Source: a virus | Virus record (IMG/VR): IMGVR_UViG_3300038701_001548 | Coordinates: 1 to 36,327 of that record | Direction: 5' to 3' (one strand) | DNA length: 36,327 bases | Part shown: piece by piece, positions 7,001 through 36,327 of the stretch | Position numbering within the stretch: the stretch's first letter is position 1 | How the letters are laid out: each line of letters opens with the position of its first letter | Notes under the pieces: generated by a model | The model's database searches: none | The model's input: the letters and a program-made list of their open reading frames with translations, nothing else | What the model was told of the DNA's origin: nothing | Program-made: the position numbers and the translations under genes

Positions 7001-7340
7001 TGATATAAAAGGGGTACCACTAGATGAGTGGCAGTATGACCATTTGGTCACTCTGGCCGGACAGACCATTGAGTTAGATATTTGGCAAGACGGAAATCCG
7101 GCAAATCAGAAAACCATTTTGAACAATATGGTGAAATCTGATTTTTATAAAGAACGATCTGATGAGAATAAGTCAATGATGATAGCTCAAATACACAGGT
7201 CATTCAATCAAGCCGCGATACATGAGCTTAGGCGTTTAGATGAGGGCTTGAATGCAAAATTATTAAAACAAGAAGAAAATAAAGAAGCCGCGTTAATTGA
7301 TTTACAAGAGGCTATTGAAGCTTCAGAGGAGTTTAGGTAA
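4023..7340 (+). CDS. Large internal virion protein, T7 gp16-like
   Basis: This 1105-residue protein is the largest in the window and sits last in the ejectosome block. The N-terminal 60 residues are acidic and low in complexity. A helical Lys/Ala/Glu-rich segment lies at about 215-245. A central region (about 460-560) begins WWDSMTELYINSLLSGTK and contains several hydrophobic stretches, a style seen in large phage virion-associated proteins (LPD38-like domains). I see no convincing lytic transglycosylase motif, unlike T7 gp16. The stop overlaps the ATG of the tail fibre (GTAATGG). The DNA for residues about 10-60 is more GC-rich than its surroundings and partly resembles the PurZ linker at about 17.95 kb. 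Confidence 0.65.
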   Translation: MSDEEYTKYRLEADRQALSDEVRATLVPDGPADTGPGATSGEDDRIGIYDEDVSRDLPSLKFNEGEPDLSTLDADELSNMVFNRVFNGGLTDLDPNLEGFGSLTQGPGVSARQQIDEKLGTGFTKSKFGSSLVDIGILDVVPGVDFGLAIDDLATIESKKTSGLDVSFEEEFGARMAIPLSILGAGAAGKKAGGIVGKALKSVRNLFPKKLGVLEQLEQEAKAATDKANAAKEVTKKRQKENVTVTQAQSQQIGDELTGFYSWAGDDIAEYLPKKAMNINLENYEIAADVKATMVAVTDNINIPKDVKAWDDTSSAGQKLADDLGLDKAWLKKTYDKLGRVDEEVHAARVMLAQSSHSLRKMVDGYSPDMTASQKSLFLASVQNHVENMKYASGIVAAPGRALNSQKIKVAVKSEDIARIDEVMLEFGAGRVDELAKALSKADTPELLNSIAKRGVRSKWWDSMTELYINSLLSGTKTLAINATGNALFAFWQIPERALGGTISSLRAGAGMMGGTPQPIDRAYVGESMAMMYGMVEGVWDGLKIAGRSVRTGNPSVAGDPTRIEGVRNKAISSENLQLSGMMGGLADVTGAIVRTPTTVMLAQDEFFKHLGRRMEINRQAYSSAMSKGGSTRDKAVEILRYRSDVPDEGIEAANDFAKYITFQNELGPNGRKIQALTNTPISRFKIPAFKFIVPFVRTPINIFTAGAVDRNPVFAPLTNKWKQAMEAGGAEADMAFAKIGSGTAIGAFIAYQASQGNITGSGPSEPRQRKAWARAGYRPYSIRTQIGEEADGSPKYEWKQYSRVEPISFVVGAVADVIDFYKYYDQDDPTREGELTNITAMVVAAVAENTTNKTFMTGLSDFFNVMEDPKRYSERWIQRFASTVVPNAMRDLSVANDPYVREIDSIVQAIKAKVPGLSKDMPPKRNVWGEPRYHDDGWFLGARSTFLPVRISEESREPIDHEIVRLAVDGVKDPATGNVQVFRDALVEPPSRDIKGVPLDEWQYDHLVTLAGQTIELDIWQDGNPANQKTILNNMVKSDFYKERSDENKSMMIAQIHRSFNQAAIHELRRLDEGLNAKLLKQEENKEAALIDLQEAIEASEEFR

Positions 7341-11996: not shown

Positions 11997-12001
11997 GTAT
12001 C

Positions 12002-12313
12002 ATGAGCTTAGACGAAGTAAGTAAAGCTATTGGAAATCTACAGTCTAAGGCTGAAGATAGTATCAAGCAGCGTGAAATACTATCAAAAAAGATAGATGAA
12101 GGCAATAAAGCTGTGGCGGATTTAACCTCGATAATAAAAGAGCATGTGGCTACTGTCGAGCTGCGCTTAGCTTCTGGATCAGAACAAATGCAAGAAAATA
12201 AAAAAGACATTGAAGGCTTAAAAAAATTCAGAACACGTGTTTATATTGCTGTAGCTGGAACTACTGGAACAGGAACAATTGCGGCTGTTTTAACTAAATT
12301 GGGATTAAAATAA
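12002..12313 (+). CDS. Small coiled-coil membrane protein of the lysis cassette
   Basis: This 103-residue protein has a charged helical N-terminal part of about 75 residues (coiled-coil heptads in AIGNLQSKAEDSIKQREIL and onward). A basic stretch (KKFRTR) follows, then one hydrophobic segment at about 80-100 (VYIAVAGTTGTGTIAAVL). That topology, with a soluble coiled coil and a single C-terminal membrane anchor, occurs in phage accessory lysis proteins. It starts five bases after the adhesin stop and overlaps the next gene by one base (TAATG). A holin, antiholin or spanin-like function is possible, but no lipoprotein box is visible. Confidence 0.5.
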   Translation: MSLDEVSKAIGNLQSKAEDSIKQREILSKKIDEGNKAVADLTSIIKEHVATVELRLASGSEQMQENKKDIEGLKKFRTRVYIAVAGTTGTGTIAAVLTKLGLK

Positions 12314-12768
12314 TGTTGATCGAATGGTTCAGGTTTGTGTCAAATGATGTTGCTACGTTGAGCATTATTTCCATTGACAAACAGTTTTTTGGGTTTGGCC
12401 TTGAAGACGCGTATCAAAAGATTAAAATCCCTGGCAAGACAAGAATAGCTGCAGGTACGTATGACATCCATTTACGCGACGCTGGGGGCATGAATATCAG
12501 GTATGCAAAGAAGTTTTCTGACTTCCACGAAGGAATGTTATGGGTTCAGGATGTTAAAAACTTTGAGTGGATTTATCACCACATAGGCAATAATGCAAAA
12601 CACACCGAAGGATGTGGGCTTGTTGGTTATGGTTGTAATCGCGACACCATGACAATTCAAACCAGTACTAAAGCGTATAGTGATTATTATAAAATAATTG
12701 TCGATGCTGCACGGCGCAAAGAACTTAAAGTGACTTACATTGATGGAGACAGGAAAAATGATTTTTAG
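12313..12768 (+). CDS. DUF5675-family protein, candidate cell-wall enzyme
   Basis: This 151-residue protein matches the pattern of DUF5675, a family found in phage lysis regions. The signature is an HxGN followed by a TxGCxLxG stretch, here HIGNNAKHTEGCGLVG at about residues 91-106. The N-terminal part has FGFGLEDAYQ and KIPGKTRIAAGTYDI. The conserved His and Cys, and resemblance in layout to L,D-transpeptidase-like folds, suggest a peptidoglycan-acting enzyme, but activity is unproven. It lies between the coiled-coil membrane gene and the holin, and overlaps the holin gene, whose start (12758) lies before its stop. No other endolysin candidate is visible in the window, which raises the chance that this is it. 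Confidence 0.6.
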   Translation: MLIEWFRFVSNDVATLSIISIDKQFFGFGLEDAYQKIKIPGKTRIAAGTYDIHLRDAGGMNIRYAKKFSDFHEGMLWVQDVKNFEWIYHHIGNNAKHTEGCGLVGYGCNRDTMTIQTSTKAYSDYYKIIVDAARRKELKVTYIDGDRKNDF

Positions 12769-13132
12769 TGCAATAGCTTCAATACTCGGTTCACCCGCTG
12801 TCATCAGTAAAGGTATGGAACTAATTGATGACGCTTTTGAGAGTGACACGGAAAAGCGTGAGAGCAAGACAAAAACAAAAATCCAGTTACTTCAGGCATA
12901 TGCCCCATTTAAATTGGCGCAACGTTATATCGCCCTGATGTTTTCGTTTATTTTTTTAACGAGTTTTTTCATCGTACTTGTCATGACTTTAGCGGACATA
13001 GGCGATCCGGAAAAAGTGTTCAAAGTTCTCGACCAATTTAAAATTGGTTGGGTTATGACTACTATCGTTTTATTTTATTTTGGCGGTGGTTTAGTCGAAA
13101 GTATTGGCACGACTAAGAATAACAAACCTTAA
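12758..13132 (+). CDS. Holin, three-transmembrane GTA-like type
   Basis: This 124-residue protein starts at the ATG at 12758, preceded by an AGGA sequence four bases upstream. An upstream TTG in frame would add six residues but has a poorer context. It has a possible short hydrophobic N-terminus (MIFSAIASILG), a charged helix, then two clear membrane segments at about residues 57-80 (IALMFSFIFLTSFFIVLVM) and 97-115 (IGWVMTTIVLFYFGGGLVE). The KLAQRYIALMF entry and the FYFGGGLVES exit resemble the three-TM holin family described for gene-transfer-agent-type lysis cassettes. A holin would form the inner-membrane hole that triggers lysis. The stop codon shares TTAA with the stop of the converging primase gene. 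Confidence 0.7.
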   Translation: MIFSAIASILGSPAVISKGMELIDDAFESDTEKRESKTKTKIQLLQAYAPFKLAQRYIALMFSFIFLTSFFIVLVMTLADIGDPEKVFKVLDQFKIGWVMTTIVLFYFGGGLVESIGTTKNNKP

Positions 13133-15243
13133 ATAACGGTACCCAAACCTTTGCGTACGGCTAACTTCCGTACGCGTACGGAAGAATCGCCAACTTTACG
13201 TACTTTTGACTCATACCCCAACGCAGTAAGTTTCCTTCCCCATGTAACTTCGTTTAATACGTTTTTATACCCCATTGCTTGGCCCCACTCCTTATAGTCC
13301 GCATACAATTCTTTAGATGGGGTCCCTTTAGCGTCAGACGTTATCCTCTCTGTGCGCCAATAAGCAACTGGATCATTTTCTAACATATACTGATCAGCTT
13401 CTTCGTGGCTGGAGTCAGGTTCTGCGAAGCCCCCTCTCTCATACAGCGCCCTAAGGGACGACACCCATAAGCGCAGAATACCGGGGCGCTCTTCTCTTAG
13501 CTTACGGTCCAAATCCGTGTCGGCATTAATCACTTTTCTCGGGCAGACTAAAATCATGATCCTACGGCGTAAAGCACCTGATGAGTCACTGGTTGCTGGC
13601 ATTTCATTAACTAATTCTAAAAATCTAGTGCCTAAAACTACATTATTTTCAGTCTCACCATATAATTTACGTATATCAATCGGGTCTTCACCAGTTATTT
13701 TCTTGAGATAAGTATCAGACACCAAATTAAGACGAGACTGCTCACCGCTAATATTAAGAAGCTTTCCCACCAATGAAGTGCGTTTACGCTCGTCATTAAG
13801 ATCAGTAATACCAACAGAACCGATCGCATCAGGATCATGCATGTTACGAAGTACTCTAGCAACAGTCCCCTTACCATTTCCACCTGGGCCTTTGAGGAAT
13901 AAAAGTTTTTGAAAAGAAGTATCGGGTATAAGGCTGTGGGCGCAGTATTCATTCCATAGATCGATCGCCTTTTGGTCAGCATTAAATGTCTCCTCTAAAA
14001 CTTTATTATATAACGGGCATTCTGCTTCGTCATTCCATTCAAAGTCTAATTGGTGTATTAGTTGATGGTCTGGGTCGTGTTTTTCTAATTCACCCGTCAT
14101 GAGGTTTAGAGTGCCATTCTTAAGACACACACGTTGACGCATGATATCATCTTTTGCTTTTGTATTTGGCGTGTATCCGAAGTTCCTAACATCAGTTAAC
14201 GTGTGAGCGATATCCCTGGCTGCTTTTGCTTCCCGTTGCGTCAGCATTTCATTTGTGGCATACATATCTTTCATGGCGGAGTTTAAGTCTATTTTTGGCC
14301 AATGGCCATCCTTATATCCTCTTAAGATACCTTGAACACACCTAACATTGTCCTCGCCACCGAATTCATCAATAAGCCAATTGGCCATGACCCGCTCTGG
14401 CGGGATTTTCTTTTTTGGTTTGGCGTTATCCGTCATCCCTTTATCTCTGGCGGAGTTGATCCAACCTTGTATCGCTTTAGATGAACCGGGCCAATTGTAC
14501 TCCTCGCCCGCCCTGACGCAAGCCTCTAATTTTGCTCTTTCTATTCTTGTATGGATATCATGATCTTCCCATCCACGGGCCACTAAATTAGCTGCAGCAG
14601 AAACGCAAGTATCATGAGTATTGCCTCCTCCGTCCACGCCCAACCAAACCATTGTGTTTAGATTATTGAAGTGGTCCGCTTTGTCGTGACAAATTGCAAC
14701 TATTTCATCTATAACTGATTTTGATATTACTGGTAGATCGCCCGGTTTTACATCCAATAAGTCAGACGTGTCCCAAGTATAAGGTTCAAGTGTCTCCGGG
14801 TGAACTGAAGGGGGCACCACTGTTTGTGACCCGTGACACAAAATTTCAACTGAAGGTCGGGGGGCGGGAGTTCTGCCTATCATCCGTTTCAATTTGGTGT
14901 TTTGTATTTTCGGATCGGCCAACCCGAAAATTGTCAGTCCTTTTTTACCAACTTTAGATGAAGTATTTTTGCCCACAGCATACAACACCGGGTCAATCAA
15001 TTCGTCATCATCAACGTCTATCGCAATTAAAATGGTGTTTTCTATAAGGGTTTTAGTCCCTAGAGCTAAACCTATATTGGAATTCGGGTACTTTTCTCCC
15101 CATTCATCCAATTCTTTGTCAGTGGGTGGCCTGTCGCAATATTCTTGCCACTTGTTAATTGCTGGACGTTTCTTTCTCTCCATTATTGGTATAGGAGATA
15201 ATCCAACGTTTGCGTATTTTTTAGCTTCCTTCTTGAAATCCAT
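13129..15243 (-). CDS. Bifunctional PrimPol primase and superfamily 3 helicase
   Basis: This 704-residue protein has two domains. The N-terminal 200 residues match bifunctional primase-polymerases: SPIPIMERKKRPAI near residue 16, GLALGT at about 58, an acidic IAIDVDDDE at about 73, and SVEILCHGSQTVVPPSVHPE at about 128. The C-terminal half is a D5/P4-like SF3 helicase with Walker A GPGGNGKGT at about residue 450 and further motifs KLLNISGEQ and FLELVNEMPATSD. It should prime and unwind DNA at the fork. It is the last gene of the minus arm. Its start overlaps the end of the helicase gene by 23 bases, and a GGGGT sequence precedes the ATG. There is no separate replicative helicase in the window, so this is the probable replisome motor. 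Confidence 0.88.
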   Translation of the reverse strand: MDFKKEAKKYANVGLSPIPIMERKKRPAINKWQEYCDRPPTDKELDEWGEKYPNSNIGLALGTKTLIENTILIAIDVDDDELIDPVLYAVGKNTSSKVGKKGLTIFGLADPKIQNTKLKRMIGRTPAPRPSVEILCHGSQTVVPPSVHPETLEPYTWDTSDLLDVKPGDLPVISKSVIDEIVAICHDKADHFNNLNTMVWLGVDGGGNTHDTCVSAAANLVARGWEDHDIHTRIERAKLEACVRAGEEYNWPGSSKAIQGWINSARDKGMTDNAKPKKKIPPERVMANWLIDEFGGEDNVRCVQGILRGYKDGHWPKIDLNSAMKDMYATNEMLTQREAKAARDIAHTLTDVRNFGYTPNTKAKDDIMRQRVCLKNGTLNLMTGELEKHDPDHQLIHQLDFEWNDEAECPLYNKVLEETFNADQKAIDLWNEYCAHSLIPDTSFQKLLFLKGPGGNGKGTVARVLRNMHDPDAIGSVGITDLNDERKRTSLVGKLLNISGEQSRLNLVSDTYLKKITGEDPIDIRKLYGETENNVVLGTRFLELVNEMPATSDSSGALRRRIMILVCPRKVINADTDLDRKLREERPGILRLWVSSLRALYERGGFAEPDSSHEEADQYMLENDPVAYWRTERITSDAKGTPSKELYADYKEWGQAMGYKNVLNEVTWGRKLTALGYESKVRKVGDSSVRVRKLAVRKGLGTVI
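13165..13184. repeat. Perfect 20-bp palindrome near the convergent gene ends
   Basis: The palindrome CTTCCGTACGCGTACGGAAG lies inside the last codons of the primase gene, about 35 bp from the point where the plus and minus arms meet. Related GTACG copies occur just beside it. It could form a hairpin in transcripts from either strand and help stop converging RNA polymerases, but no T-run follows. The palindrome itself is certain; its role is not. Confidence 0.8.
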
Positions 15244-16642
15244 TTTTTACCCCGTCAACTACTGCTTTTGCTACATTATCCTTGCGCAATAACGCGTCAC
15301 CCGCTGCTGCTTCAATTTCAGAAGAAATCAAATCAACATATAATACGAATTCTGCGTCCTGCCCGTGTCGGTGTGGTCTATCTTCGGCTTGTATCCTCGC
15401 ATCATAATCATAGGTCGCTTCAAAAAATGCCACAGTGCTGCATCTCATGATGTCATTACCTAATAAAGTGTGTCCATATTTTGCTGAAGTTATTTGACAA
15501 ACTATAACTCTTGATGTGTTATCGTGTTCAAACTTATCTTTTTGTTCTTGTAACTCTTCTTCTGTCATTTGTCCTTTAATCCATGATGGATTAAATTCAT
15601 CCAAGTCTTTTATTAATTTGTTAACAGAATGTCTAAAGAAAGCAAAAACTATAAGCTTACCTTCAATCTCGCCCAACAACTCTTTAATTGCTTCGGTTTT
15701 AGGTATTTTTCCTCCAATTTCTATCGCTTCCCCTTCCTCGTTAATAATGAAACCAGATGAAATTTGTTGCAACTTCATCATCTGAGTTACGACCATTCCT
15801 GCTTCAATCTCGCTAACTTCTTCAGAAAAGCCTTTTATTTCTGTAAAGAAATCCTTTTTCATGTTTAAATAGTGTTTTTCTTGGTTTTTACTTAACCCGA
15901 CCATACGTTTTGTGTGTATTTTTGGGGGGAGGTCTGTCCAGTCTTTCTTTTTGGCCCTAAATGAATGTGGTTGTAACATTTCATTCAACGCTTCTTCGTT
16001 TTTGGCCCCAACTATCTGTTTACCTCGATATCCACCCATCTTACAATATTTGTTACGGAAAGCAAAATAATTAAAATTATTGATCGCCCCTATAAACCTC
16101 AATTGTGCCCATAAGTCATGCGGCCCTTGAGAAACAGGCGCTCCAGATAAAATGCGTCTAAACGGAGAGAACTTACTTAGAGCTATTAGGTTTATAGTTC
16201 GTTTTCCATTATGTTTTTTGATGGATATGCTCTCATCCAACGTAAACATACAACGGTATTTTTTCATCACTTCTTCTGCGGCCAAAACTGCCTTTGCTCG
16301 TCCAACAGCGAAACCCTCATAGTTAATGATCCAGATGAAGGGTTTGTTTTTCGGTTTAGGGGTCTCGGGCCACTTAACGACTTCTACTTTTTCACTTAAA
16401 CCCCAATTTCTTATTTCATTGGACCATGTTTGTTTTAAACTCATGGGACAAACAACTATTAAACCTCTCACTTCATCTTTAACAAATAACGAAATAAATT
16501 CGTTGAGTACAACAGCTGTTTTCCCTAAACCCATTTCCATGAAATACGCGAAACCGGGCAACATCCACGCCCGATTTGCTGCTACGGTCTGTACTTCGTA
16601 GGGTTCCCCCTTAAGAACCCACATTTTCAACATCCGTATCAT
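15221..16642 (-). CDS. SNF2-like superfamily 2 helicase
   Basis: This protein has about 473 residues. Walker A MGLGKT is at residues 37-42, then VVCPMSLKQTW (motif Ia), TLDES at 134-138 (motif II), and LSGAPVSQGPHDLWAQLRFI (motif III) at about 167. The second RecA lobe has LIVFAFFRHSVNKLI and the motif VI region RIQAEDRPHRHGQ near residue 425. This is the arrangement of phage SNF2-like DNA translocases, which act in replication, recombination or fork remodelling. The start is uncertain: ATGs at 16642, 16633 and 16622 are all possible, and the last has the best upstream GGATG. It overlaps DatZ upstream and the primase downstream, so the three genes are probably co-translated. Confidence 0.85.
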   Translation of the reverse strand: MIRMLKMWVLKGEPYEVQTVAANRAWMLPGFAYFMEMGLGKTAVVLNEFISLFVKDEVRGLIVVCPMSLKQTWSNEIRNWGLSEKVEVVKWPETPKPKNKPFIWIINYEGFAVGRAKAVLAAEEVMKKYRCMFTLDESISIKKHNGKRTINLIALSKFSPFRRILSGAPVSQGPHDLWAQLRFIGAINNFNYFAFRNKYCKMGGYRGKQIVGAKNEEALNEMLQPHSFRAKKKDWTDLPPKIHTKRMVGLSKNQEKHYLNMKKDFFTEIKGFSEEVSEIEAGMVVTQMMKLQQISSGFIINEEGEAIEIGGKIPKTEAIKELLGEIEGKLIVFAFFRHSVNKLIKDLDEFNPSWIKGQMTEEELQEQKDKFEHDNTSRVIVCQITSAKYGHTLLGNDIMRCSTVAFFEATYDYDARIQAEDRPHRHGQDAEFVLYVDLISSEIEAAAGDALLRKDNVAKAVVDGVKNGFQEGS

Positions 16643-17183
16643 TAGTTGGTATTCTAGAAGTAACTTCCATACCTAAATGTGGCGCAACGTACTTATCCCA
16701 CAAAGTATTTTTTGTTTCCCTATCTTCTAACCAAGGGAGGTTTTCCCATGCTCGATTTAATCTCTCCATTGAGTTGACTAAAAAAGGGGTAACTGATTTA
16801 TTTCCTAATTCTATTTCATCTGTCAAAAAGAAACATTCATCTAATAAATCAGCACATTTTATGATAGATTTGATTTCATCAGATAGGATCAATTGTGGGC
16901 CGAAACGTCTTTGTGTTTCGCTGAACCTGTACGCTCCCATTTTTTCTTTGTCCGAAATGTTTCTTTTTACTGGCCCCGGAATATCAGACATAAAACATTC
17001 ATCGATGTCATGGTACAATGCGGCATGGGCCAAAAAACCTTCGTCAAATCCGAGCCAATAACCTAATTGTTCCGCGTAAATGGCCACGTAAAAAGAATGT
17101 TCCGCCACGGATTGTGTTCTAATTGTTCTTGCGATGCCCCATCTTGGAACAAAAGCTAAATCTCTGTATTCTCGTTCAAACAT
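16611..17183 (-). CDS. datZ: DatZ-like HD-domain dATP triphosphohydrolase
   Basis: This 190-residue HD-domain protein starts at the ATG with a strong GAGGAG six bases upstream; the longer in-frame start lies in the terminator and is unlikely. Metal ligands are His29 (SVAEHS), His58-Asp59 (ALYHDIDE) and Asp112 (KCADLLDE). The N-terminal FVPRWGIARTIR keeps Trp15 and Ile17. In the cyanophage S-2L enzyme the equivalent Trp and Ile shape a pocket that accepts adenine and excludes the 2-amino group. The predicted reaction is dATP to deoxyadenosine plus triphosphate, clearing dATP so that aminoadenine is used instead. It sits just downstream of the PurZ gene and an intrinsic terminator. A YfbR-type 5'-nucleotidase is the alternative, but the PurZ neighbour favours DatZ. 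Confidence 0.82.
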   Translation of the reverse strand: MFEREYRDLAFVPRWGIARTIRTQSVAEHSFYVAIYAEQLGYWLGFDEGFLAHAALYHDIDECFMSDIPGPVKRNISDKEKMGAYRFSETQRRFGPQLILSDEIKSIIKCADLLDECFFLTDEIELGNKSVTPFLVNSMERLNRAWENLPWLEDRETKNTLWDKYVAPHLGMEVTSRIPTNDTDVENVGS

Positions 17184-17201
17184 TACATTCTCCTCTCTAT
17201 G

Positions 17202-17223
17202 AAAAAAGGGGGCCGAAGCCCCC
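17202..17223 (-). terminator. Intrinsic terminator between the purZ operon and datZ
   Basis: Read on the minus strand, a perfect GGGGGC / GCCCCC stem with a TTCG tetraloop is followed by six T residues. It lies after the 145-residue gene (stop at 17232) and just before the ribosome-binding site of datZ. Partial read-through would set datZ and helicase expression below purZ, or a promoter between them is missing from view. Confidence 0.92.
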
Positions 17224-17231
17224 ACTAGTTA

Positions 17232-17669
17232 CTAGTTAAACGGGTAAATCGGGTTCCCCAATTCACGTGTTCGTTTGTTGTCTTGGAAGAATTTAACCCC
17301 TGTTTCTTTGTGAGACCATATATAAGAAACAAGACGGTTGTTTTCTGTCCAATTGCCGTGGAAAACGAAGTCTTTTTTAGTAACGGTATATTCTTTGCCA
17401 TCAATTTTCATCGTGACTTCTTTGTCTGTCCCAATATCTGGTTCAGGTTCTGCTTTTTTGATGACGTTGAATTCTCTCCACGCTAAATCGCGCAATTTTG
17501 AGTCCACTACAAATGGGACTAGCCCACGTATAACTGGCAACTCGGGAAGACCTGATTGTGTGAATGCGTCAGGGTCTTCCGGGTCAAGTTGTCTGATAAC
17601 CTCAACCAACTTCTTGATTTTTTCTTCTTGCGGGATTTCTGGTAATGGTTCGTTGCTTTCTTCAGTCAT
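17232..17669 (-). CDS. Conserved phage protein of unknown function, downstream of purZ
   Basis: This 145-residue protein starts at an ATG whose ATGA overlaps the stop of the PurZ fusion, with AAGGA eight bases upstream. It is acidic at the N-terminus (EESNEPLPEIPQEEK). The recognisable middle is LPVIRGLVPFVVDSKLRDLA and the C-terminus is KDFVFHGNWTENNRLVSYIW. No transmembrane segment or known catalytic motif is visible. Tight coupling to purZ suggests a role in the same nucleotide or DNA-replication process, but I do not recognise a family and make no functional claim. Confidence 0.7.
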   Translation of the reverse strand: MTEESNEPLPEIPQEEKIKKLVEVIRQLDPEDPDAFTQSGLPELPVIRGLVPFVVDSKLRDLAWREFNVIKKAEPEPDIGTDKEVTMKIDGKEYTVTKKDFVFHGNWTENNRLVSYIWSHKETGVKFFQDNKRTRELGNPIYPFN

Positions 17670-19099
17670 AGTAATTTTCCTTTCATAACATTCCACGCTA
17701 TCATCATCGCGAAATTTGCTACATCAGCGGCTTCAAGAAAAATCTCAATAAAGTTGCCACCACGGATCGCGTCTTTCAACTCGTCCACTTCATCAAGTAA
17801 TCTTTTAAATAAAACGTCCACATTGCGTTCTTCCCATCCGCCTTTATGGTCATTTTTTCTGAGTTTGTGTTCCATTGCATGGGCCAGCATCATGACCTCG
17901 CGACGTATGGGGGCAGGGGTCTCGATATGGTCGCTCTCCCCGGACGTCGCATCGCGTCCTGGTCTAGATACCCTAGGCGCTATAGGCGTAGCGGACGTCG
18001 TGTCCTCTACGCCTCCTGGGGGCTTAGCAATAGTCCCGCCCGTCACATAGGGTTTAACGTTTGCCTCTTTTGGTCCAGTACCCAAATAAATATCTGGATT
18101 GATTTGTTCCTCATGATTGACGGCGGATATTTTGCGCAACAAGTTTAACAATTCTTCTTGTTCACAGTAATTAGCGAAATTTAAAAATATGCTTGCTGGT
18201 CTTACACAGGTTAACGATCTATGATATTGAATTTCAGAGAATGTTGCTACTCTCCTTACCCGTTTAGTAACGGTGGTTCTTTCAGGGCCAAGTTGTAAAT
18301 CGTCCCACGTTTTTTCAACCGAATCAGGATAGAATGGACCACTTGTTCCTATTTCTTTTCCTTCTTCATCAACAATGTTCCCTACCCGTATGGGGTAAGT
18401 CCTTAGGGTCATATGCACATTACCTAAGAATGAAGGGTGAACGCCCGCATCTGACATACCTTGAGCTACCGACACTTCGCGTGACGTACAATAAGGATAA
18501 GAAAGGCCCCCATTTAAACCTAAATCCACACCTTGCGGTATTTCCATAAATACCGTCGACCCTTGTTTCATTTTTAAATTTAAATCGACATCTGCTATAG
18601 AAAAATTAGGAGTGTTTTTGTCTGGGAAATTTGGGAAAAAGTCTCCAGCTAGAATGCCGCTGCGTTTAACTTTATCGGCTAGAGCAGCGCCGACCCCTTT
18701 TTGGGTGGATGCTAATTTAGTGGCAGCAGAATCCCTATGTTTTTCACTATGCCTATGCATCGGTAGGATTATGGCCGCACGAGGATGGATATAAATTCTT
18801 TCGGGGTTAACTTTTAATTCAGTAATTTCTTTTATTAAAAGTTCTGGGTCGATGATCGATCCTGCCGACAAGAAAATTTTACTTTTTTCATTCAGCACTC
18901 CGGAAACCGGGAGATGGAAACATATAAAACTACGTTCCCTATCGATGTAAGTATGTCCAGCATTTGGGGCCGCGTTTGTAACTGCCAAATCAAAAGTGTC
19001 GCGCTTCGCCATGTAACCAGAATAAAGACCTTTTCCGGTTGAGCCAAATTGTCCGTCTATGATGCAATTAAACTTCCCTTTTGCGAAAAATTCAGTCAT
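17666..19099 (-). CDS. purZ: PurZ-MazZ fusion: aminoadenylosuccinate synthetase joined to a nucleotide pyrophosphohydrolase domain
   Basis: This is a single 477-residue frame. Residues 1-352 are an adenylosuccinate synthetase homologue: the P-loop GQFGSTGKG (16-24) replaces the bacterial GQWGDEGKGK, so the catalytic Asp of PurA is Ser20, while PNAGHT (45-50) keeps the catalytic His49. That Asp-to-Ser change marks phage PurZ, which joins dGMP and aspartate to make the precursor of dZMP. Residues 353-398 are a Pro/Thr/Gly linker. Residues 399-477 have HKLRKNDHKGGW and a MazG-type ExxE...ExxD set (Glu437, Glu440, Glu456, Asp459), like the dATP/dGTP pyrophosphohydrolase MazZ that yields dGMP. The ATG overlaps the upstream stop. 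Two Met codons (403-404) after GAGG could permit separate translation of the second domain. Confidence 0.88.
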   Translation of the reverse strand: MTEFFAKGKFNCIIDGQFGSTGKGLYSGYMAKRDTFDLAVTNAAPNAGHTYIDRERSFICFHLPVSGVLNEKSKIFLSAGSIIDPELLIKEITELKVNPERIYIHPRAAIILPMHRHSEKHRDSAATKLASTQKGVGAALADKVKRSGILAGDFFPNFPDKNTPNFSIADVDLNLKMKQGSTVFMEIPQGVDLGLNGGLSYPYCTSREVSVAQGMSDAGVHPSFLGNVHMTLRTYPIRVGNIVDEEGKEIGTSGPFYPDSVEKTWDDLQLGPERTTVTKRVRRVATFSEIQYHRSLTCVRPASIFLNFANYCEQEELLNLLRKISAVNHEEQINPDIYLGTGPKEANVKPYVTGGTIAKPPGGVEDTTSATPIAPRVSRPGRDATSGESDHIETPAPIRREVMMLAHAMEHKLRKNDHKGGWEERNVDVLFKRLLDEVDELKDAIRGGNFIEIFLEAADVANFAMMIAWNVMKGKLL

Positions 19100-19352
19100 T
19101 TTTATCTTCCTTCAATTGACGTGATGCTAGGGTTGCGTATCCGGCGATGTCATCCCAATGATCATGGAGAGTGTGATCACCAGCAATGATCCTAGCTATC
19201 TTTGTTGAAATTAAATCCAAAGCTTCAAGTAACACGGGGTCCGTGATTTTTTCTCGTGCTATTGCTTTGATTGCTTGAGATACGCCCGATAATTCTGCAA
19301 AATCGCCATGAACTGAACCTCTTTCTTCTAAAAGTTCCTCAATCAACCCCAT
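19092..19352 (-). CDS. DUF6378-like phage protein
   Basis: This is an 86-residue soluble helical protein. The segment EELLEERGSVHGDFAELS at the start, then IAGDHTLHDHWDDIAGYATL near the end, match a small family frequent in phage nucleotide-metabolism regions (DUF6378 pattern). Its conserved Glu and Asp residues resemble those of all-alpha nucleotide pyrophosphohydrolases, so a MazG-like relation is possible but unproven. The frame is open much further upstream, but that part shadows the nuclease gene, so I place the start at the ATG for MGLIEELL. No good ribosome-binding site is seen; translation may be coupled, as the start overlaps the end of the nuclease gene. Its stop overlaps the ATG of the PurZ fusion. 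Confidence 0.65.
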   Translation of the reverse strand: MGLIEELLEERGSVHGDFAELSGVSQAIKAIAREKITDPVLLEALDLISTKIARIIAGDHTLHDHWDDIAGYATLASRQLKEDKND

Positions 19353-19752
19353 AGATGATTCTGCGTATGATCGCGTCGATGTTCCAGGTTTCCCCTCTTC
19401 GTTTTGTTTGGATAAGGGTTCCATGGTCTTCGACATGGGTTGCATCGGCGCTTGTTCCAACCCAAAGTTCCCAATAGTTAGTTCGAATTTTAATACACAC
19501 TGCCCATCCGACATAACCCCCAACTCTGCAGTGCTTCCTAATCCACCTTCTTTGTAATTCAGTAAGCTTAATTTTCTGCCCACGGGATGTTGTATATTTA
19601 AGTTCCACCCATGCAAGTTGAAACTGAGGTGCTTTAAACCACGTATCAGGACGTCCTTTGTTGTGGTCTGCTGTGTTGGCTTCTGCGTGGTATCCAAGTT
19701 GTTTGGCATCTTTCATTAACTCCGATCTAAATGAATTTTCATTGGTGGCCAT
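19339..19752 (-). CDS. PD-(D/E)XK (VRR-NUC-like) nuclease
   Basis: This 137-residue protein has a compact nuclease core: FRSELMKDAKQLGYHA helix, then GRPDTWFK (Asp36) and WVELKY (Glu50, Lys52), which form the PD-(D/E)xK signature. A basic helix KLTELQRRWIRKH and VGGYVGWAV follow. Small proteins of this type in phages act on branched or structured DNA, for example in Holliday junction or recombination processing. It follows the DNA polymerase gene after four bases and has AAGGA nine bases before its ATG. The motif is clear; the exact DNA substrate cannot be told. Confidence 0.78.
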   Translation of the reverse strand: MATNENSFRSELMKDAKQLGYHAEANTADHNKGRPDTWFKAPQFQLAWVELKYTTSRGQKIKLTELQRRWIRKHCRVGGYVGWAVCIKIRTNYWELWVGTSADATHVEDHGTLIQTKRRGETWNIDAIIRRIIYGVD

Positions 19753-19756
19753 GATT

Positions 19757-21529
19757 TTAATCCTTCAACCAATTTGTCCCGAATGAAGCTTCCTCCCAAT
19801 TAATTCCAGTTTCTGAGTCAACTGCCATGGGCACATTCATCTGAAATACATCGTCCGGCCCAAATGACTCCATAATTTCTTTTGCACGTTTGTCTTGTTC
19901 TTCACAACCATATGGTACGAACCAATCTAACTCATCATGCACCTGTAAACGGAGAGTACAGTCTCCCCCTTGTGATTGAAAATACTCTTCTACTTCAACC
20001 ATTTTCAATTTTGTGATGTCAGCACTGGACATTTGAATAACAGCATTTCCGGCTTTGTATGCGGCCCTAAGATCAGGGAAACGACGCCGACGACCCAATT
20101 TAGACCGAACATACCCTCTTGTTCTGCCCCAATGTTCACATTTCTTTAAAAATTCTTTCGCTTCTGGCACCATTACGTCATATCTTCTACGGTACTCTTT
20201 CGCTTCTGGCACTGGTATTCCTAAAGAATTTGCCAGAGTTGGCACACCCATTCCGTACACCATTCCAAGGTTCATTCTTTTGGCTGTCGGGTCCCGCTCA
20301 ACGTCAAGCATTTTAGCAATAGAAGAGTGGATATCAATAGGTGGTTCCGATCTATATCCATCGACAAGCATGGGCGCTCCAGTGTAGTCCGTAAACACTC
20401 TGAACTCTTGTTGTGAATAATCATTTGCCGACCAATAAGTGCCTTTTTCAGCTTCAAATATTGATCTGAAGATTGGTGCGAGAATTTTGTCACGTTTTGG
20501 TACCTGCTGCATGTTGGGGTCAGAAGACGATAACCTTCCGGTCACTGTGCCGAAGTCATCCATTTTTAGTTGATTAAACGTACAGTGTACTCGCCCTTGC
20601 CACAAATGCCTTTCCAATAAGGGGTTGATAAAGGAATTTTCCATGTTAGTAATTTTCCGCGCTTGGATAATTGAACTTCCAAGTCCGAATGTTTTAAGCC
20701 AGCCCTCAGTGAATGAGGGGTTCCCCTTGGGAGTGAGAGGCCAATTCGTGTTCCCGGTGTCTGTAAATAATTCAAGTAATTTGGGGCGCGATCTAACATC
20801 TTCGATACCGATTGGAAGCATATTCGCGACAATCTCAAGTTTTGAGGACATCGCGTCTCTGACTTTTTCAAGTACCTCTTCGTTGACCGGGACACCGCGT
20901 CGCTCCATGTTGAATAAAATTCGTATAATTCTGCATTCGATACCGTGCAACAAAGATAATCCGTCGTTTTCGATGTAATCATGTTGTTTTTTCCATACTT
21001 GCCAAGTAGAAGTACCATCACCTTCTGCATAAGAAACACCTATTGGGTCATTACCTTCTAATTTATGAAAATGTTCCATTTGTTTGTATGTAGGCTGACC
21101 ACCAAATTTTTGGGCCAAATATTCGTACATGTCCTTAGATTTTTTAACTTGTACGTTCATCACAGTGGAACATTTTTCTAGATTGTATGCGCCTTGGTTT
21201 TCATCGATCAGTGATTGGTTAATTTGGGTGCACTCGATAGGGCCGTTTATTTCCAAATCGTGGGACTTGCACATATGCATATCAAATTTGAAATTGTGGC
21301 CGATTTTCTTTATGTTGAAATTTGATAACAGGCTAGAGACCCACTTCTCTACGGGTTCTGCATCTAGGTTACCGCCTCCCTCATGCCGTACAGGGAGATA
21401 GAGCGTCTCGTCAGAACCTTCGCCCCACGTGACCACGTGACCTACGATTTTATTTGTTTTCCAATCTAAACCGTCTGTTTCACAGTCATAAACAATTGCT
21501 TCGGCTTGTGATAAATCGGGTAAATCCAT
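19757..21529 (-). CDS. dpoZ: Family A DNA polymerase with proofreading domain (DpoZ-like)
   Basis: This 590-residue replicative polymerase starts at the ATG preceded by GAGAGGA; an in-frame ATG 30 bases earlier lacks a site. The 3'-5' exonuclease domain is intact: ExoI DCETDG (15-20), ExoII HNFKFD (78-83), ExoIII YAEGD (167-171). Polymerase motifs are A DYSQQEFR (370-377), B with Lys417 and Tyr425, and C VHDE (530-533). There is no 5'-3' exonuclease domain. Leu421 sits where E. coli Pol I has Phe762. PolA-type enzymes with exonuclease encoded beside PurZ are called DpoZ and favour incorporation of aminoadenine. Without phylogeny, DpoZ rather than generic phage PolA is an inference from the neighbours. 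Confidence 0.85.
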   Translation of the reverse strand: MDLPDLSQAEAIVYDCETDGLDWKTNKIVGHVVTWGEGSDETLYLPVRHEGGGNLDAEPVEKWVSSLLSNFNIKKIGHNFKFDMHMCKSHDLEINGPIECTQINQSLIDENQGAYNLEKCSTVMNVQVKKSKDMYEYLAQKFGGQPTYKQMEHFHKLEGNDPIGVSYAEGDGTSTWQVWKKQHDYIENDGLSLLHGIECRIIRILFNMERRGVPVNEEVLEKVRDAMSSKLEIVANMLPIGIEDVRSRPKLLELFTDTGNTNWPLTPKGNPSFTEGWLKTFGLGSSIIQARKITNMENSFINPLLERHLWQGRVHCTFNQLKMDDFGTVTGRLSSSDPNMQQVPKRDKILAPIFRSIFEAEKGTYWSANDYSQQEFRVFTDYTGAPMLVDGYRSEPPIDIHSSIAKMLDVERDPTAKRMNLGMVYGMGVPTLANSLGIPVPEAKEYRRRYDVMVPEAKEFLKKCEHWGRTRGYVRSKLGRRRRFPDLRAAYKAGNAVIQMSSADITKLKMVEVEEYFQSQGGDCTLRLQVHDELDWFVPYGCEEQDKRAKEIMESFGPDDVFQMNVPMAVDSETGINWEEASFGTNWLKD

Positions 21530-21539
21530 TGTTTCCTCT

Positions 21540-21734
21540 CTAAGAAATTGCTTGTTCATATATTCTGTTCAGGTTTTTCCACATTTTGCCCGATATAAAA
21601 ATCTCGGACCCAATTTCCTCATATTGCGATCTTATGTCAGAAATAAACTCTTTATTCCATCCACGCAAATCGCAATCGCGTATCGTGTTTAGAATTTCCA
21701 TGAGGCGTTCTTCTTCCTCAGTGTTTATTGACAT
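21540..21734 (-). CDS. Small acidic protein of unknown function
   Basis: This 64-residue protein starts at an ATG preceded by a good GGAGAG, six bases away; a longer in-frame start is a shadow of the HNH gene. It is charged and helical (INTEEEERLMEILNTIRDCD), with a C-terminal IFISGKMWKNLNRIYEQ. No membrane segment or known motif is seen. It lies between the HNH endonuclease gene, whose last bases it overlaps, and the polymerase gene. A link to the polymerase is only positional. Confidence 0.65.
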   Translation of the reverse strand: MSINTEEEERLMEILNTIRDCDLRGWNKEFISDIRSQYEEIGSEIFISGKMWKNLNRIYEQAIS

Positions 21735-22015
21735 TTGTCTCTCCGTATTTGATTTTCTTTGTGCGAGACTTGTTCGAGATGGTCTGGGTTGACGCAGCAC
21801 CGAACCCGGCACGTATGATCGATTTGCGCATTTCTTCTAATTCGTCCCACAAAGGCAGTATAGGAGAAACGATGGGCTGCAATGGTTTGTCCTTTAATTG
21901 AGAAACGTCCATATCCACCTCCTCTTCCTGTGCCACTGTCGCTCCCTGTCCATAACCAACACCCACTGTTTGGTTCCGGTGAAACATGCGACATAAATCT
22001 TTCAACAATACCCAT
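21725..22015 (-). CDS. HNH homing endonuclease
   Basis: This 96-residue protein starts at the ATG at 22015, with AAGGA six bases upstream. It has the phage HNH_3-type order: GCWLWTGS near residue 19, GYGRFSIKGQTIAAHRFSY, then QIDHTCRVRCCVNPDHLEQV with the catalytic His and the zinc/structural Cys-His residues. Such free-standing HNH enzymes cut DNA and often lie next to, or inside, DNA polymerase or replication genes of phages, promoting their own spread. Here it sits between the ssDNA-binding-like protein and the polymerase block. I see no intron or split gene around it. Confidence 0.85.
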   Translation of the reverse strand: MGIVERFMSHVSPEPNSGCWLWTGSDSGTGRGGGYGRFSIKGQTIAAHRFSYTAFVGRIRRNAQIDHTCRVRCCVNPDHLEQVSHKENQIRRDKCQ

Positions 22016-22026
22016 TTTAATCCTTA

Positions 22027-22136
22027 TCGTAGAACACATCTAGGTGTAAAAACACTGGGAAAGATGCATCATCGCCTAATACTTTTTAAAATTATTCTCT
22101 TTCGGCCTAGACATTCCAATACAATGTGTTCTACGA
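22027..22136. repeat. Perfect 13-bp inverted repeat in the gap upstream of the HNH gene
   Basis: TCGTAGAACACAT (22027-22039) is the exact complement of ATGTGTTCTACGA (22124-22136). The arms enclose 84 bp of AT-rich sequence with no gene, between the terminator of the ssDNA-binding-like gene and the start of the HNH gene. It could be a footprint of the endonuclease gene's insertion, an operator pair or a transcript structure. Confidence 0.85.
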
Positions 22137-22167
22137 AAAGAATGGGGGGAGGCAGCAACTCCCCCCA
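22136..22167 (-). terminator. Terminator after the ssDNA-binding-like gene
   Basis: On the minus strand, a 9-bp stem (TGGGGGGAG / CTCCCCCCA) with a 7-base loop is followed by ATTCTTTTC. It lies about 40 bases past the stop of the 280-residue gene and before the HNH and polymerase genes, so it separates the early transcript into two parts. The T-run is short and interrupted, so termination may be incomplete. Confidence 0.75.
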
Positions 22168-22206
22168 CCCCTCAACATTCAACAGCGCGGGGTAGCACTA
22201 AGAATG

Positions 22207-23049
22207 TTATACGTCAGACCCGTCGCCATAATCCGCACCTTGGGGATCAGCTTCTTGTGATCCCTCGATGTCAGCAATGTTGAGTCCTTGTTCTGAGAAC
22301 TGTTCGTAGAGTTTTTCGCATTTATTAAAGAGTTCTTCATCCTCAACAAAACCATCGGTTTCAATGCGATAATTGCGGAACTCTTCGCCTGCTCCGTTCT
22401 GATCAACAATTGATGTCATGCGGAACTGCAACCCATATGAAGGGGCTTCGATCATTTTGAGCTTGCCCATAAACTTACGAGCAACGGTGACAGACGACCT
22501 TTGCAGTGTAAGCACACAAGGTGAAAGATCAGGACGTTCCTTAATCCAACACACTGTGCTGTACATTTTTGTGGCTGCAGGTGCGGAATCCGGATTTTCT
22601 GGATCACTTGAACCCCAAGCACTCAACCCGCTTTCTTCAACAGTTTCTTTTGTTTCCCAGGTAACGGTTTTTTTGATGTCCTTGTAGGGTTGGACTTCAA
22701 ATTTTTGGTTCGGCGGGTTCCAGTGAACACCATCGTCAGCACGGGCCAAAATTCCGCCACCAGAATGGCGAGGGTTCCACAAAATAAAGCGAATATCGGA
22801 ATAAATAGGGATGATAGTAAGTTCATCTCCAAGTTCCTCTTCCATGATATTGTGATAGAATTGGCCAGGACGACAATCTCCGTTGTTCACTTCGTCCGAC
22901 AATGATTGCAACAAAACAAGTCGCGGAATTTCGACATCAGAATTACTAATACCTTCTGTGCCCCTTCCCGCTTTATTCTGCATGAATGAAGGCATCTCAG
23001 GTAGATTGCCCTCGGTTTTTTTCGCTACTGCTTTCTTAGCCATGACCAT
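22207..23049 (-). CDS. Putative single-stranded DNA-binding protein
   Basis: This 280-residue protein has a Lys/Ala-rich start (AKKAVAKKTEG), a globular middle with several Trp residues and strands (VEIPRLVLLQSLSDEV, ELTIIPIYSDIRFILWNPR, FMGKLKMIEAPSYGLQFRM), and a strongly acidic tail ending in ADPQGADYGDGSDV. An acidic C-terminus after an OB-like core is typical of phage and bacterial ssDNA-binding proteins, where it recruits replication enzymes. The start could be 23049 or 23043; the AGAGGA lies close to the first and at normal distance from the second. Position before the polymerase block fits. No family signature is decisive. Confidence 0.55.
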   Translation of the reverse strand: MVMAKKAVAKKTEGNLPEMPSFMQNKAGRGTEGISNSDVEIPRLVLLQSLSDEVNNGDCRPGQFYHNIMEEELGDELTIIPIYSDIRFILWNPRHSGGGILARADDGVHWNPPNQKFEVQPYKDIKKTVTWETKETVEESGLSAWGSSDPENPDSAPAATKMYSTVCWIKERPDLSPCVLTLQRSSVTVARKFMGKLKMIEAPSYGLQFRMTSIVDQNGAGEEFRNYRIETDGFVEDEELFNKCEKLYEQFSEQGLNIADIEGSQEADPQGADYGDGSDV

Positions 23050-23081
23050 TTTCCTCTCTGTGGCTAGTTAAAATTTGTGAA

Positions 23082-23333
23082 TTACGTTACGCGTCTAGAA
23101 CGCCAACCTTTCGTGGCGTGTAAATAATGTTCATGTGATCCACTATTATCAAAAAAGATGATTCTTCTTTCATAAGTGCCTTTCGGGGTGTCACCAACAA
23201 CGTGCTCAAATACTCTGTTTTTTCGACGATTGTTGATTTTCTTCGCTTTTTTGAGGTAATGGCGCGCCATCATATTACTTGTGCGCTTTTCCTTTGTGCT
23301 GTCGGCTTTTGCTAAAATGCTACTTTTAGACAT
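23082..23333 (-). CDS. Small basic protein of unknown function
   Basis: This 83-residue protein is rich in Lys and Arg (YLKKAKKINNRRKNRVFEHV, KGWRSRRVT at the end), with an AAAGGTG ribosome-binding sequence before the ATG. A charged helix is followed by a short strand-rich part (ERRIIFFDNSGSHEHYLHA). The composition would suit nucleic-acid binding, but there is no known motif. It lies between the ssDNA-binding-like gene and a 177-residue unknown, all in one minus-strand operon. Confidence 0.6.
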   Translation of the reverse strand: MSKSSILAKADSTKEKRTSNMMARHYLKKAKKINNRRKNRVFEHVVGDTPKGTYERRIIFFDNSGSHEHYLHATKGWRSRRVT

Positions 23334-23334
23334 G

Positions 23335-23868
23335 TTACACCTTTGTCATTGAAGTGTTGTCGTAGTACTGACTATTAAACAACTCATCATCAAGTTCTTT
23401 TGCTTGAGATAAGAGGTCTTTGGCCAATGCTGATAAGGTCGAAGAATTAACAGTTTCTTGGATAATATCTCCAAGACCATTTTCACGTAACCATTCGTAA
23501 GCTTCAGCTTTCTTGTCCTTTTTGATGGACGCCCTAAGTTGAGAACTGACCGTGAACCGAAATCCGATTTTGTCGAGCGTGATCGTTTTTAAATCTTCAC
23601 TCTCAAATCGCTCTGGGATGGTTTTCTCTTTAAGCATGACCTTTGCCGCATTCACAGATTTAGTCAACTTGGAAATCTTATCATGGAAGGTAAAAATTCT
23701 GTTGAACCCCACCAAAAGAGAAGCCGTTTTTGCGGTTTTAGCCTCGTCAAAGGCCCAGAAACGCATTTGGTTGATCACGCCCTCAACCGCGTCCAAAAGA
23801 TGTCCTGTGCTAATATCACCATCCAGAACACGTTTATTTAGTTCTTTTATAAATTCGTCGTTCGTCAT
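23335..23868 (-). CDS. Unknown helical phage protein
   Basis: This 177-residue protein starts at an ATG with GAGAGGA eight bases upstream. It is largely alpha-helical, with DISTGHLLDAVEGVINQM near the start, FHDKISKLTKSVNAAKVML in the middle and a C-terminal half containing EAYEWLRENGLGDIIQ. The C-terminal part (about 110-160) resembles conserved proteins encoded near the ssDNA-binding gene of other podoviruses, but I cannot name a family or a role. Confidence 0.65.
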   Translation of the reverse strand: MTNDEFIKELNKRVLDGDISTGHLLDAVEGVINQMRFWAFDEAKTAKTASLLVGFNRIFTFHDKISKLTKSVNAAKVMLKEKTIPERFESEDLKTITLDKIGFRFTVSSQLRASIKKDKKAEAYEWLRENGLGDIIQETVNSSTLSALAKDLLSQAKELDDELFNSQYYDNTSMTKV

Positions 23869-23881
23869 TTTGTTTTCCTCT

Positions 23882-24202
23882 CTAATAATCGGCTATTTTA
23901 AGTTTATAATAGCCTCTGTTTTCCCGGTCCCATTTTAGCGCCGGAATACTGCTAACCCCCTTTACGTCGGTTAAAACCCAAATAGCCATAGCTATGGCCT
24001 CAGGTGCACCAGTTAAAAGGAGAAAATCTCTGTTCATATTGAAGTTTCTAAGTTTGGCTTTCATAATGTCATGAATGACCATAATTCTGTCTTCTGCGTC
24101 ATCAGGAAACGCGTCACGTTCAATTAAAGAAATAAGTTTTCCATGTTTTTTAGCTTTATTGAAATTCAACTTACCATTATTTTGAATTACGTAAACTGCC
24201 AT
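23882..24202 (-). CDS. Unknown conserved phage protein
   Basis: This 106-residue protein starts at an ATG with AGAGGA five bases upstream. The C-terminal half, DFLLLTGAPEAIAMAIWVLT followed by PALKWDRENRGYY, is of a type I have seen repeatedly in phage early regions, where it is annotated as hypothetical. It is soluble and has no catalytic signature. A strong hairpin lies just upstream in its leader. Confidence 0.65.
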   Translation of the reverse strand: MAVYVIQNNGKLNFNKAKKHGKLISLIERDAFPDDAEDRIMVIHDIMKAKLRNFNMNRDFLLLTGAPEAIAMAIWVLTDVKGVSSIPALKWDRENRGYYKLKIADY

Positions 24203-35649: not shown

Positions 35650-36327
35650 ATGCCAGAATTAAGAACGGCGCAAACCAATTTCAGTTCTGGAGAATTGTCT
35701 CCGAGGATGCGCGGGAGAGTAGACCTAAAACAATATTATCAGAGTGCGTCATCATTATCTAATGTTTTGTTATACCCTCAAGGAGGGTGTTATGTTAGAC
35801 CTGGAATGGCTTTTGATGCCGAATTAATTGGAAATTTGTCGGAGGTGGATTTAACTGCCGGAGGGGTTGCGGTAACCACCCCCGAAGGCGGTACCCCGGC
35901 AAACCTTATAGACGGTGATCGTAGTACTTCTTCTGTTTCTGGAGCAATTAGTACAACCGACCCATTCGTATTGGTGCATATTGATTTAGGCGCAGCTACA
36001 GATGTTTCATTCATCGACACAATAGAATTCAAGTTATCAGGATTATCTACTGATGAGTTTAGGTGGCAATCTTCAACGGATGATATTTCTTTTAGTGATT
36101 TTGGTTCACCCTTAGAAAGTATTGATACTAACACGACAGATCGGAGAGCATCAGATTCTGTTAATGCTAGATATTGGAGACTAGCTAAGATCGGGGGCGA
36201 AGACTTATCTACAGAAACTGCCGCGCTCACAAAAGTTCAAATGTTTACTGAACAATCTAATGTTTCCGATTATGAAACTATTGAATTTGATTTCGGTTCA
36301 GGTCAAACGTATTTTTTGTTGGTTCTC
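35650..36327 (+). CDS. Tail tubular protein B-like (nozzle), N-terminal part with an inserted discoidin-like domain
   Basis: The gene starts at ATG 35650 and is cut by the window end; it continues at 1-1806. The first 55 residues (TNFSSGELSPRMRGRVDLKQ then SSLSNVLLYPQGGCYVRPG) are typical of gp12-like nozzle proteins. Residues about 60-198 do not belong to that core: NLIDGDRSTSSV, a VHIDLGAATDVSFIDTIEF strand, RWQSSTDDISFSDFG and ARYWRLAKIGG are the pattern of F5/8 type C (discoidin) carbohydrate-binding domains. The core then resumes at about residue 210 (IEFDFGSGQTYF). The last three bases (CTC) disagree with the other copy and probably are not real. Confidence 0.88.
   Translation, partial: MPELRTAQTNFSSGELSPRMRGRVDLKQYYQSASSLSNVLLYPQGGCYVRPGMAFDAELIGNLSEVDLTAGGVAVTTPEGGTPANLIDGDRSTSSVSGAISTTDPFVLVHIDLGAATDVSFIDTIEFKLSGLSTDEFRWQSSTDDISFSDFGSPLESIDTNTTDRRASDSVNARYWRLAKIGGEDLSTETAALTKVQMFTEQSNVSDYETIEFDFGSGQTYFLLVL
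36199..36324. repeat. Terminal overlap, copy 2 (circular closure of the map)
   Basis: The stretch is identical to bases 4-129. Merging the copies makes a circle of about 36,195 bp and restores one continuous 783-residue nozzle gene. A length of 126 bases is typical of assembly-graph overlap, so this is not evidence for physical terminal repeats. Confidence 0.9.

Follow-up and report, generated by a model that had tools for sequence, protein, structure and literature searches.

We analyzed a 36,327-base contig of an uncultivated virus (IMG/VR record IMGVR_UViG_3300038701_001548), here called the window, which carries on its minus strand, at positions 13129 to 23049, a module predicted to make DNA containing 2-aminoadenine (Z). 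In the order of transcription, this module encodes a Pam3 gp34-like protein, an HNH protein, a family A DNA polymerase, a VRR-type nuclease, a DUF6378 protein, a PurZ-type synthetase in one frame with a MazZ-2 domain, a 154-amino-acid (aa) unknown protein, a DatZ-like hydrolase, an SNF2 helicase, and a primase-helicase (Table 1). A Z pathway is well supported as a prediction by the placement of PurZ in a phylogenetic tree, by the catalytic and specificity residues of DatZ and MazZ-2, and by a gene order that is that of Z clusters. Z-DNA production is the best reading of these genes because almost all of the active-site residues of PurZ and DatZ are intact, and it is highly probable that the module makes such DNA, with discrimination against adenine (A) achieved mainly by removal of dATP.

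The synthetase open reading frame (ORF) contains the P-loop GQFGSTGKG at residues 16 to 24, with Ser20 at the position of Asp13 in Escherichia coli PurA and S23 in the PurZ of cyanophage S-2L. A preliminary description of this DNA had called the protein PurZ-type on these grounds, and its top family matches agree (PHROG "2-aminooxy adenylosuccinate synthetase," E value of 1e-60; NCBIfam PurZ, E value of 1e-71). All of the features in that description lie on the minus strand, from 16611 to 21559, and go well past anything that chance would produce. The residues identical to the S-2L pocket, as that pocket is described in PMC8342488, are Ser20, Gly22, N46 to T50, T132, R146, Q189, R238, V239, T275 to T278, N307, and F308. 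When compared with both the S-2L and phiVC8 enzymes, the dGMP/ATP pocket differs solely at positions where PurZ proteins vary (Y21F, G130A, R244I, and Q308N), and Y21F and Q308N are as in phiVC8. In a tree of 131 sequences with a single distant PurA, that of E. coli, as the outgroup, the window protein falls on the PurZ side (support of 97), away from PurZ0 (99) and from E. coli PurA. Within PurZ, it belongs to a 67-sequence clade (99), here called OH-like after the cultivated Ochrobactrum phage vB_OspP_OH (Wolominvirus OH), that is sister to a 55-sequence clade containing phiVC8, S-2L, and SH-Ab 15497 (96). A scan of IMG/VR with the single PurZ ORF sequence gave no matches; alignment queries did return matches. 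PurZ proteins of the same broad clade also occur on very large contigs (L028, L054, L055, L058, L064, L067, and L068, of 67 to 287 kb, and L180, a 994-kb contig of a metagenome-assembled genome labeled Proteobacteria), at loci that lack DatZ or MazZ and mostly lack a nearby PolA.

The HD hydrolase has the expected DatZ stretch RWGI at residues 28 to 31, and its best PHROG match is dATP triphosphohydrolase (E value of 1e-20). It keeps 13 of the 14 residues reported to be important in S-2L DatZ (PMC8065100), namely, R19, W20, I22, Q29, A32, H34, H66, D67, E70, P79, K81, K116, and D119. All of the metal ligands (H34, H66, D67, E70, and D119) are among them, as are all six of the residues that set base and sugar specificity (W20, I22, and P79) or contact phosphate (R19, K81, and K116). 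W20 and I22 shape the dATP specificity of the S-2L enzyme (PMC8065100); in a comparison HD protein, from a phage without PurZ nearby, Tyr and Val occupy positions 20 and 22. In the DatZ tree, the window protein groups with DatZ/HD proteins of the same PurZ lineage, the deep branch being weak (support of 38/50).

The MazZ-like domain of the preliminary description is also present, as approximately residues 397 to 477 of the synthetase ORF; that it is fused to PurZ is a point absent from that description. The domain is 70% identical to the MazZ-2 protein of L026 (IMG/VR IMGVR_UViG_3300037586_002164), the closest relative of the window, and has all of the catalytic acids (E51, E54, E70, and D73 of the domain). 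The K/E/E/E/D/N set that is invariant in 39 MazZ-2 sequences is kept. The best PDB folds for its structure model (predicted local distance difference test score [pLDDT] of 92), which was built, like our other models, from alignments of fetched contigs, are MazG proteins (2yxh, 7yh5, and 3cra), with probabilities of 0.97 to 1.0 and modest E values of 0.05 to 0.3. MazZ-2 sits between purZ and datZ, with the extra 154-aa gene lying before datZ.

The polymerase has the exonuclease and polymerase motifs of the proofreading family A enzyme that had been described, but its earlier assignment to DpoZ is not supported. The reported signatures of DpoZ (PMC8599892) comprise insertions 1 to 3, Leu455, Gly548, and Phe459, the last being common to the two known clades. 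Insertions 2 and 3, along with Phe459, Leu455, and Gly548, occur in all eight of the phiVC8-type reference DpoZ proteins that we aligned. The window polymerase has a steric-gate Tyr rather than Phe459 and Asn for Gly548, keeps Leu455, and has the length of insertion 1, which is also present in polymerases of phages without PurZ; insertions 2 and 3 are absent. The vB_OspP_OH polymerase, with Ser at the gate, lacks insertions 2 and 3 too. In the polymerase tree, the window and vB_OspP_OH share a clade with support of 100/100, apart from the DpoZ clade, and an approximately unbiased (AU) test on 44 polymerases rejected a tree in which the window and L026 were forced into the phiVC8-like DpoZ clade (P = 6.8e-5). 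A shared origin of the OH-like and DpoZ clades is not settled by the tree (89/62). By these residues and missing insertions, the AU test, and a DpoZ model score below its cutoff, the polymerase does not qualify as a phiVC8-like DpoZ, and it does not match a Wayne-like DpoZ either, given the Tyr gate in the place of Phe459 and the presence of PurZ instead of a PurZ0/DutZ context. An S-2L-type PrimPol was dropped as the replicative enzyme of the window, as the window primase has no BLASTP similarity to it. Two other PurZ contigs, L043 and L106, encode very divergent PolA proteins, whose extremely long branches belong with neither of the two Z polymerase clades.

Among loci fetched by PurZ, the gate residue tracks the module type. 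MazZ-1 loci have 41 Phe and 1 Tyr, and MazZ-2 loci, with the window and vB_OspP_OH counted, have 41 Thr, 5 Tyr, 2 Ser, 1 Asn, 1 Met, and 1 Phe. Because PurZ-fetched loci would make an analysis of linkage circular, we searched IMG/VR by polymerase alone and kept the 80 best loci; some of these contigs overlap PurZ-fetched ones, so the counts are not population frequencies. PurZ is present at 39 of the 42 loci in the OH-like clade, and the remaining 3 contigs end 0.4 to 1.4 kb after the polymerase. Outside this clade, 14 of 33 loci have a PurZ match (13 with the DpoZ signature plus L255, with a weaker PurZ-like match). The other 19 lack one, although in 14 of these the contig extends at least 5 kb downstream. 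The OH-like polymerase is therefore tightly linked to PurZ, although the described Z marks are absent. No description of a signature for this clade was found in the freely accessible papers that our literature search, here and below, covered.

This linkage bears on a serious, if tentative, alternative, in which the polymerase represents a third, independently evolved Z-selective family that uses residues other than Phe459, Gly548, and insertions 2 and 3, so that exclusion of A would operate in the polymerase and also in the deoxynucleoside triphosphate (dNTP) pool. The full support for the OH-like clade would fit such a family, as would a steric gate of Thr, Ser, or Asn in most members and the presence of PurZ near nearly all of them (the three others lying on contigs that end within 1.5 kb) and near almost no polymerase outside both Z clades. 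Against it, the polymerase of the window itself retains Tyr, Asn, and Glu, the canonical residues, the linkage may mean that one replication module is inherited together, and the tree leaves the common origin of the two Z polymerase clades unsettled.

We favor a model in which A would be excluded mainly by dATP removal, as in S-2L, because the polymerase is no recognized DpoZ. A polymerase of another kind is compatible with Z-DNA, since neither Klenow polymerase I nor S-2L PrimPol discriminates A from Z and the datZ-mazZ-purZ triad alone leads to Z in E. coli DNA (PMC8342488; PMC8599892) and since S-2L relies on DatZ (PMC8342488; PMC8065100). In the proposed pathway, MazZ-2 would cleave dGTP to dGMP, and PurZ, on the same polypeptide, would combine dGMP with aspartate, using ATP or dATP, to form the deoxy form of 2-amino-adenylosuccinate (dSMP), the fusion coupling dGMP supply to PurZ. 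Host PurB and kinases would then complete dZTP, a route established for S-2L, phiVC8, and SH-Ab 15497. DatZ would meanwhile destroy dATP, and the phage polymerase would use dZTP opposite T, dATP being scarce by then, which would bring Z, to some extent, into virion DNA. The preliminary description held that the DNA of this phage carries Z instead of A. Its Z pathway is well supported by genes, residues, and gene order; complete replacement is not, since the only described discriminator at the level of the polymerase, DpoZ, is missing or unrecognized.

PurZ and MazZ-2 form a single 477-aa ORF, and the junction of the fused frame, within positions 17,990 to 18,070, reads AAACCCTATGTGACG. The linker has a G+C content of 60%, versus 41% for PurZ and 43% for MazZ, a value reached by 0.3% of 150-bp windows. 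It also has an RNA fold z score of -2.5 and the lowest 120-nucleotide minimum free energy in the Z module, and the stretch from 17915 to 18063 can form a strong RNA hairpin with a stem of 8 plus 4 bp. We set aside the idea of an RNA element in the purZ-mazZ interval: compared with shuffled sequences, the fold of the corresponding gap has a z score of -3.0 in L025 (positions 7180 to 7328), while L026 (-0.1) and L187 (+1.8) are without excess structure, and there was no Rfam match. No other PurZ-MazZ fusion was found among 151 PurZ-fetched contigs, approximately 50 more PurZ contigs fetched by polymerase (some being PurZ-fetched contigs with other boundaries), and 219 phage records, and the literature search found no description of one.

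At the start of the linker, the +1 frame reads ATG-TGA, which coincides with a possible GTG start in the MazZ-2 frame (ATGTGA/GTGA); the fused frame is therefore one nucleotide from a stop/start overlap. In L026, the MazZ-2 frame opens directly after the purZ TGA and carries a GC-rich tail of a similar kind; in L187, no more than one TAA stands between the two frames. It is conceivable, if rather unlikely, that the fusion is not biological and that one extra base in the AAACCC just before GTGA, introduced by error in assembly or sequencing or present in a rare mutant, has joined two overlapping genes. That a one-base change restores the overlap, that these two relatives show unfused frames in near contact with linker-like tails, and that no second fusion appears in approximately 200 PurZ loci or in the phage records all agree with such an artifact, but a single indel error at this place is unlikely a priori because no disruption interrupts the 477 codons or any of the module's other main ORFs. 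Although it rests on one contig, the fusion is more likely to be real than to be an error.

Several points weigh against Z-DNA in this phage. Z is predicted here from genes, and our literature search found no member of the OH-like clade reported to contain it. In DatZ, G74, which is strict in close homologues, is Ser (Ser80), as it is in a few other PurZ-linked DatZ proteins. The NCBIfam models score below their cutoffs, with 241.5 bits for PurZ (NF038379; curated cutoff of 300), even so the top match among the models, and 340.6 bits for DpoZ (NF038380; cutoff of 500), and the fusion is known from a single contig. The low PurZ score is what one would expect of a lineage that probably did not contribute to the model. 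The view that the cluster merely recycles nucleotides (dNTP salvage during infection) in a phage with ordinary A is how these genes were initially interpreted in print for vB_OspP_OH (PMC7139368) and draws on the existence of YfbR-like HD enzymes and MazG enzymes in phages without PurZ, but it is improbable given that no salvage role is known for a PurZ with Ser in place of Asp13, that DatZ keeps the dATP-specific W and I, and that the three genes are coinherited with a dedicated polymerase clade.

Further genes of the module are listed with these features in Table 1. The nuclease occupies the same place as in vB_OspP_OH, where gp30 is annotated as a putative nuclease, and in L026. The DUF6378 gene adjoins PurZ repeatedly in MazZ-2 loci, and alignment of its product with relatives shows invariant G, K, R, D, G, and Y residues. 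The label "phosphofructokinase" that PHROG 474 and phage records attach to this gene is not supported by the model of its product, a small one of four helices (pLDDT of 95) with no fold match in the PDB. The N-terminal stretch of approximately 119 aa of a longer version of this ORF (19092 to 19709) is probably noncoding because it overlaps the nuclease gene in another frame. The replication module also encodes Pam3 gp34-like and gp33-like proteins (22207 to 23049 and 23335 to 23868), for both of which tblastn shows relatives in the majority of the PurZ contigs that we fetched, and the interval from 22100 to 22219 on the minus strand, between the gp34-like and HNH genes, is the second most structured RNA stretch of the module.

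Table 1. Features of the minus-strand replication and Z module of the window
Feature	Position	Strand	Remarks
Prim-Pol plus D5-type primase-helicase	13129..15243	-	PF09250, PF08706, TIGR01613; 67% identity to L026
SNF2-type helicase, replication module	15221..16642	-	PF00176, E 1e-23; 56% identity to L026
DatZ-like HD dATP triphosphohydrolase (predicted)	16611..17225	-	Starts with GTG; ATG at 17183 is an alternative
Hypothetical 154-aa protein between MazZ-2 and DatZ	17232..17696	-	Homologue only in L026/L027 among compared loci
MazZ-2 domain, MazG-like (d)NTP pyrophosphohydrolase (predicted)	17669..17911	-	Residues 397-477 of the PurZ ORF
Pro/Thr/Gly-rich, GC-rich linker from PurZ to MazZ-2	17912..18055	-	Residues 349-396
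PurZ domain, 2-amino-adenylosuccinate synthetase (predicted)	18056..19099	-	Residues 1-348 of the 477-aa ORF at 17666-19099
DUF6378-like small helical protein	19092..19352	-	PF19905, E 4e-4; PHROG 474, E 7e-13; likely start at 19352
VRR-NUC-like nuclease	19339..19752	-	PHROG 93/2165; 52% identity to L026
Family A DNA polymerase with 3'-5' exonuclease, OH-like clade	19757..21559	-	PolA and exonuclease domains

The contig has an identical 126-base repeat at its ends (4 to 129 and 36199 to 36324), flanked by 3 nonmatching bases at each end, and one tail gene continues in frame across the ends; the genome is therefore circular or circularly permuted, with a length of approximately 36,195 bp. A megablast search with window positions 12,000 to 24,000 found no close DNA match in 50,697 phage records. 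The virion genes, on the plus strand, encode a terminase, a head-tail connector (PF12236, E value of 1e-72), a capsid protein (PF19821), tail tubular proteins A and B, and an internal virion protein, with PHROGs 332, 394, 376, and 6651 among the T7-type matches, and because of these genes, the predicted virion is that of a T7-like podovirus. The preliminary label "T7-like podovirus" is thus apt as regards the genes of the portal, tail tubular proteins, and internal virion protein; it does not extend to a T7-type RNA polymerase, for which no match was found among window ORFs of more than 300 aa.

The Z pathway itself is already known, and the variant parts here are the polymerase clade without DpoZ marks and the PurZ-MazZ-2 fusion. 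Current accounts give Z phages either a DpoZ, from one of two Phe459-bearing clades, or a PrimPol like that of S-2L. One study counts the Ochrobactrum phage among the MazZ-2 phages and calls the PolA proteins of Z phages Z-selective as a group (PMC8342488), and a 2026 survey gives just two DpoZ groups and leaves Ochrobactrum unmentioned in its main text (PMC12884076). It is possible, though we put this forward tentatively, that the window, together with vB_OspP_OH and dozens of metagenomic phages, represents a third, undescribed Z-linked polymerase lineage that makes Z-DNA without the DpoZ signature, in which the gate Tyr, elsewhere conserved, has mostly become Thr, Ser, or Asn and to which the window adds a bifunctional PurZ-MazZ-2 protein feeding dGMP into the pathway. 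Such a PurZ-linked clade opens a direct test of whether Z selectivity resides in the polymerase or whether a dATP purge is enough, and the fused protein, if real, would be a ready-made two-step enzyme for Z precursors.

Among known systems, L026 is nearest to the window. Nine proteins of the window module, the primase included, lie there in the same order with 34 to 67% identity, and it shares the Tyr gate and the GC-rich tail on MazZ-2, but a purZ stop codon precedes its MazZ-2 frame, so that the two are unfused. vB_OspP_OH has the same order of PolA, nuclease, DUF6378, PurZ, MazZ-2, hypothetical protein, DatZ, and helicase, with 34 to 43% protein identity, and its PurZ and polymerase belong to the same clades as those of the window. 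It differs in having separate PurZ and MazZ-2 genes, a Ser rather than a Tyr polymerase gate, a primase with no BLASTP relation to that of the window, and annotated structural genes of another set. phiVC8 and SH-Ab 15497 resemble the window in the predicted PurZ, DatZ, and MazZ activities and in a PolA with exonuclease; in contrast, they belong to the sister PurZ clade and have a DpoZ with Phe459, Gly548, and insertions 2 and 3, and in SH-Ab 15497, a DUF5664-DUF550 protein serves as MazZ. Cyanophage S-2L has a PrimPol, no PolA, and a MazZ of the MazZ-1 type, yet it offers a parallel to the model proposed here, in which DatZ would exclude A from the pool and the polymerase would be nonselective.

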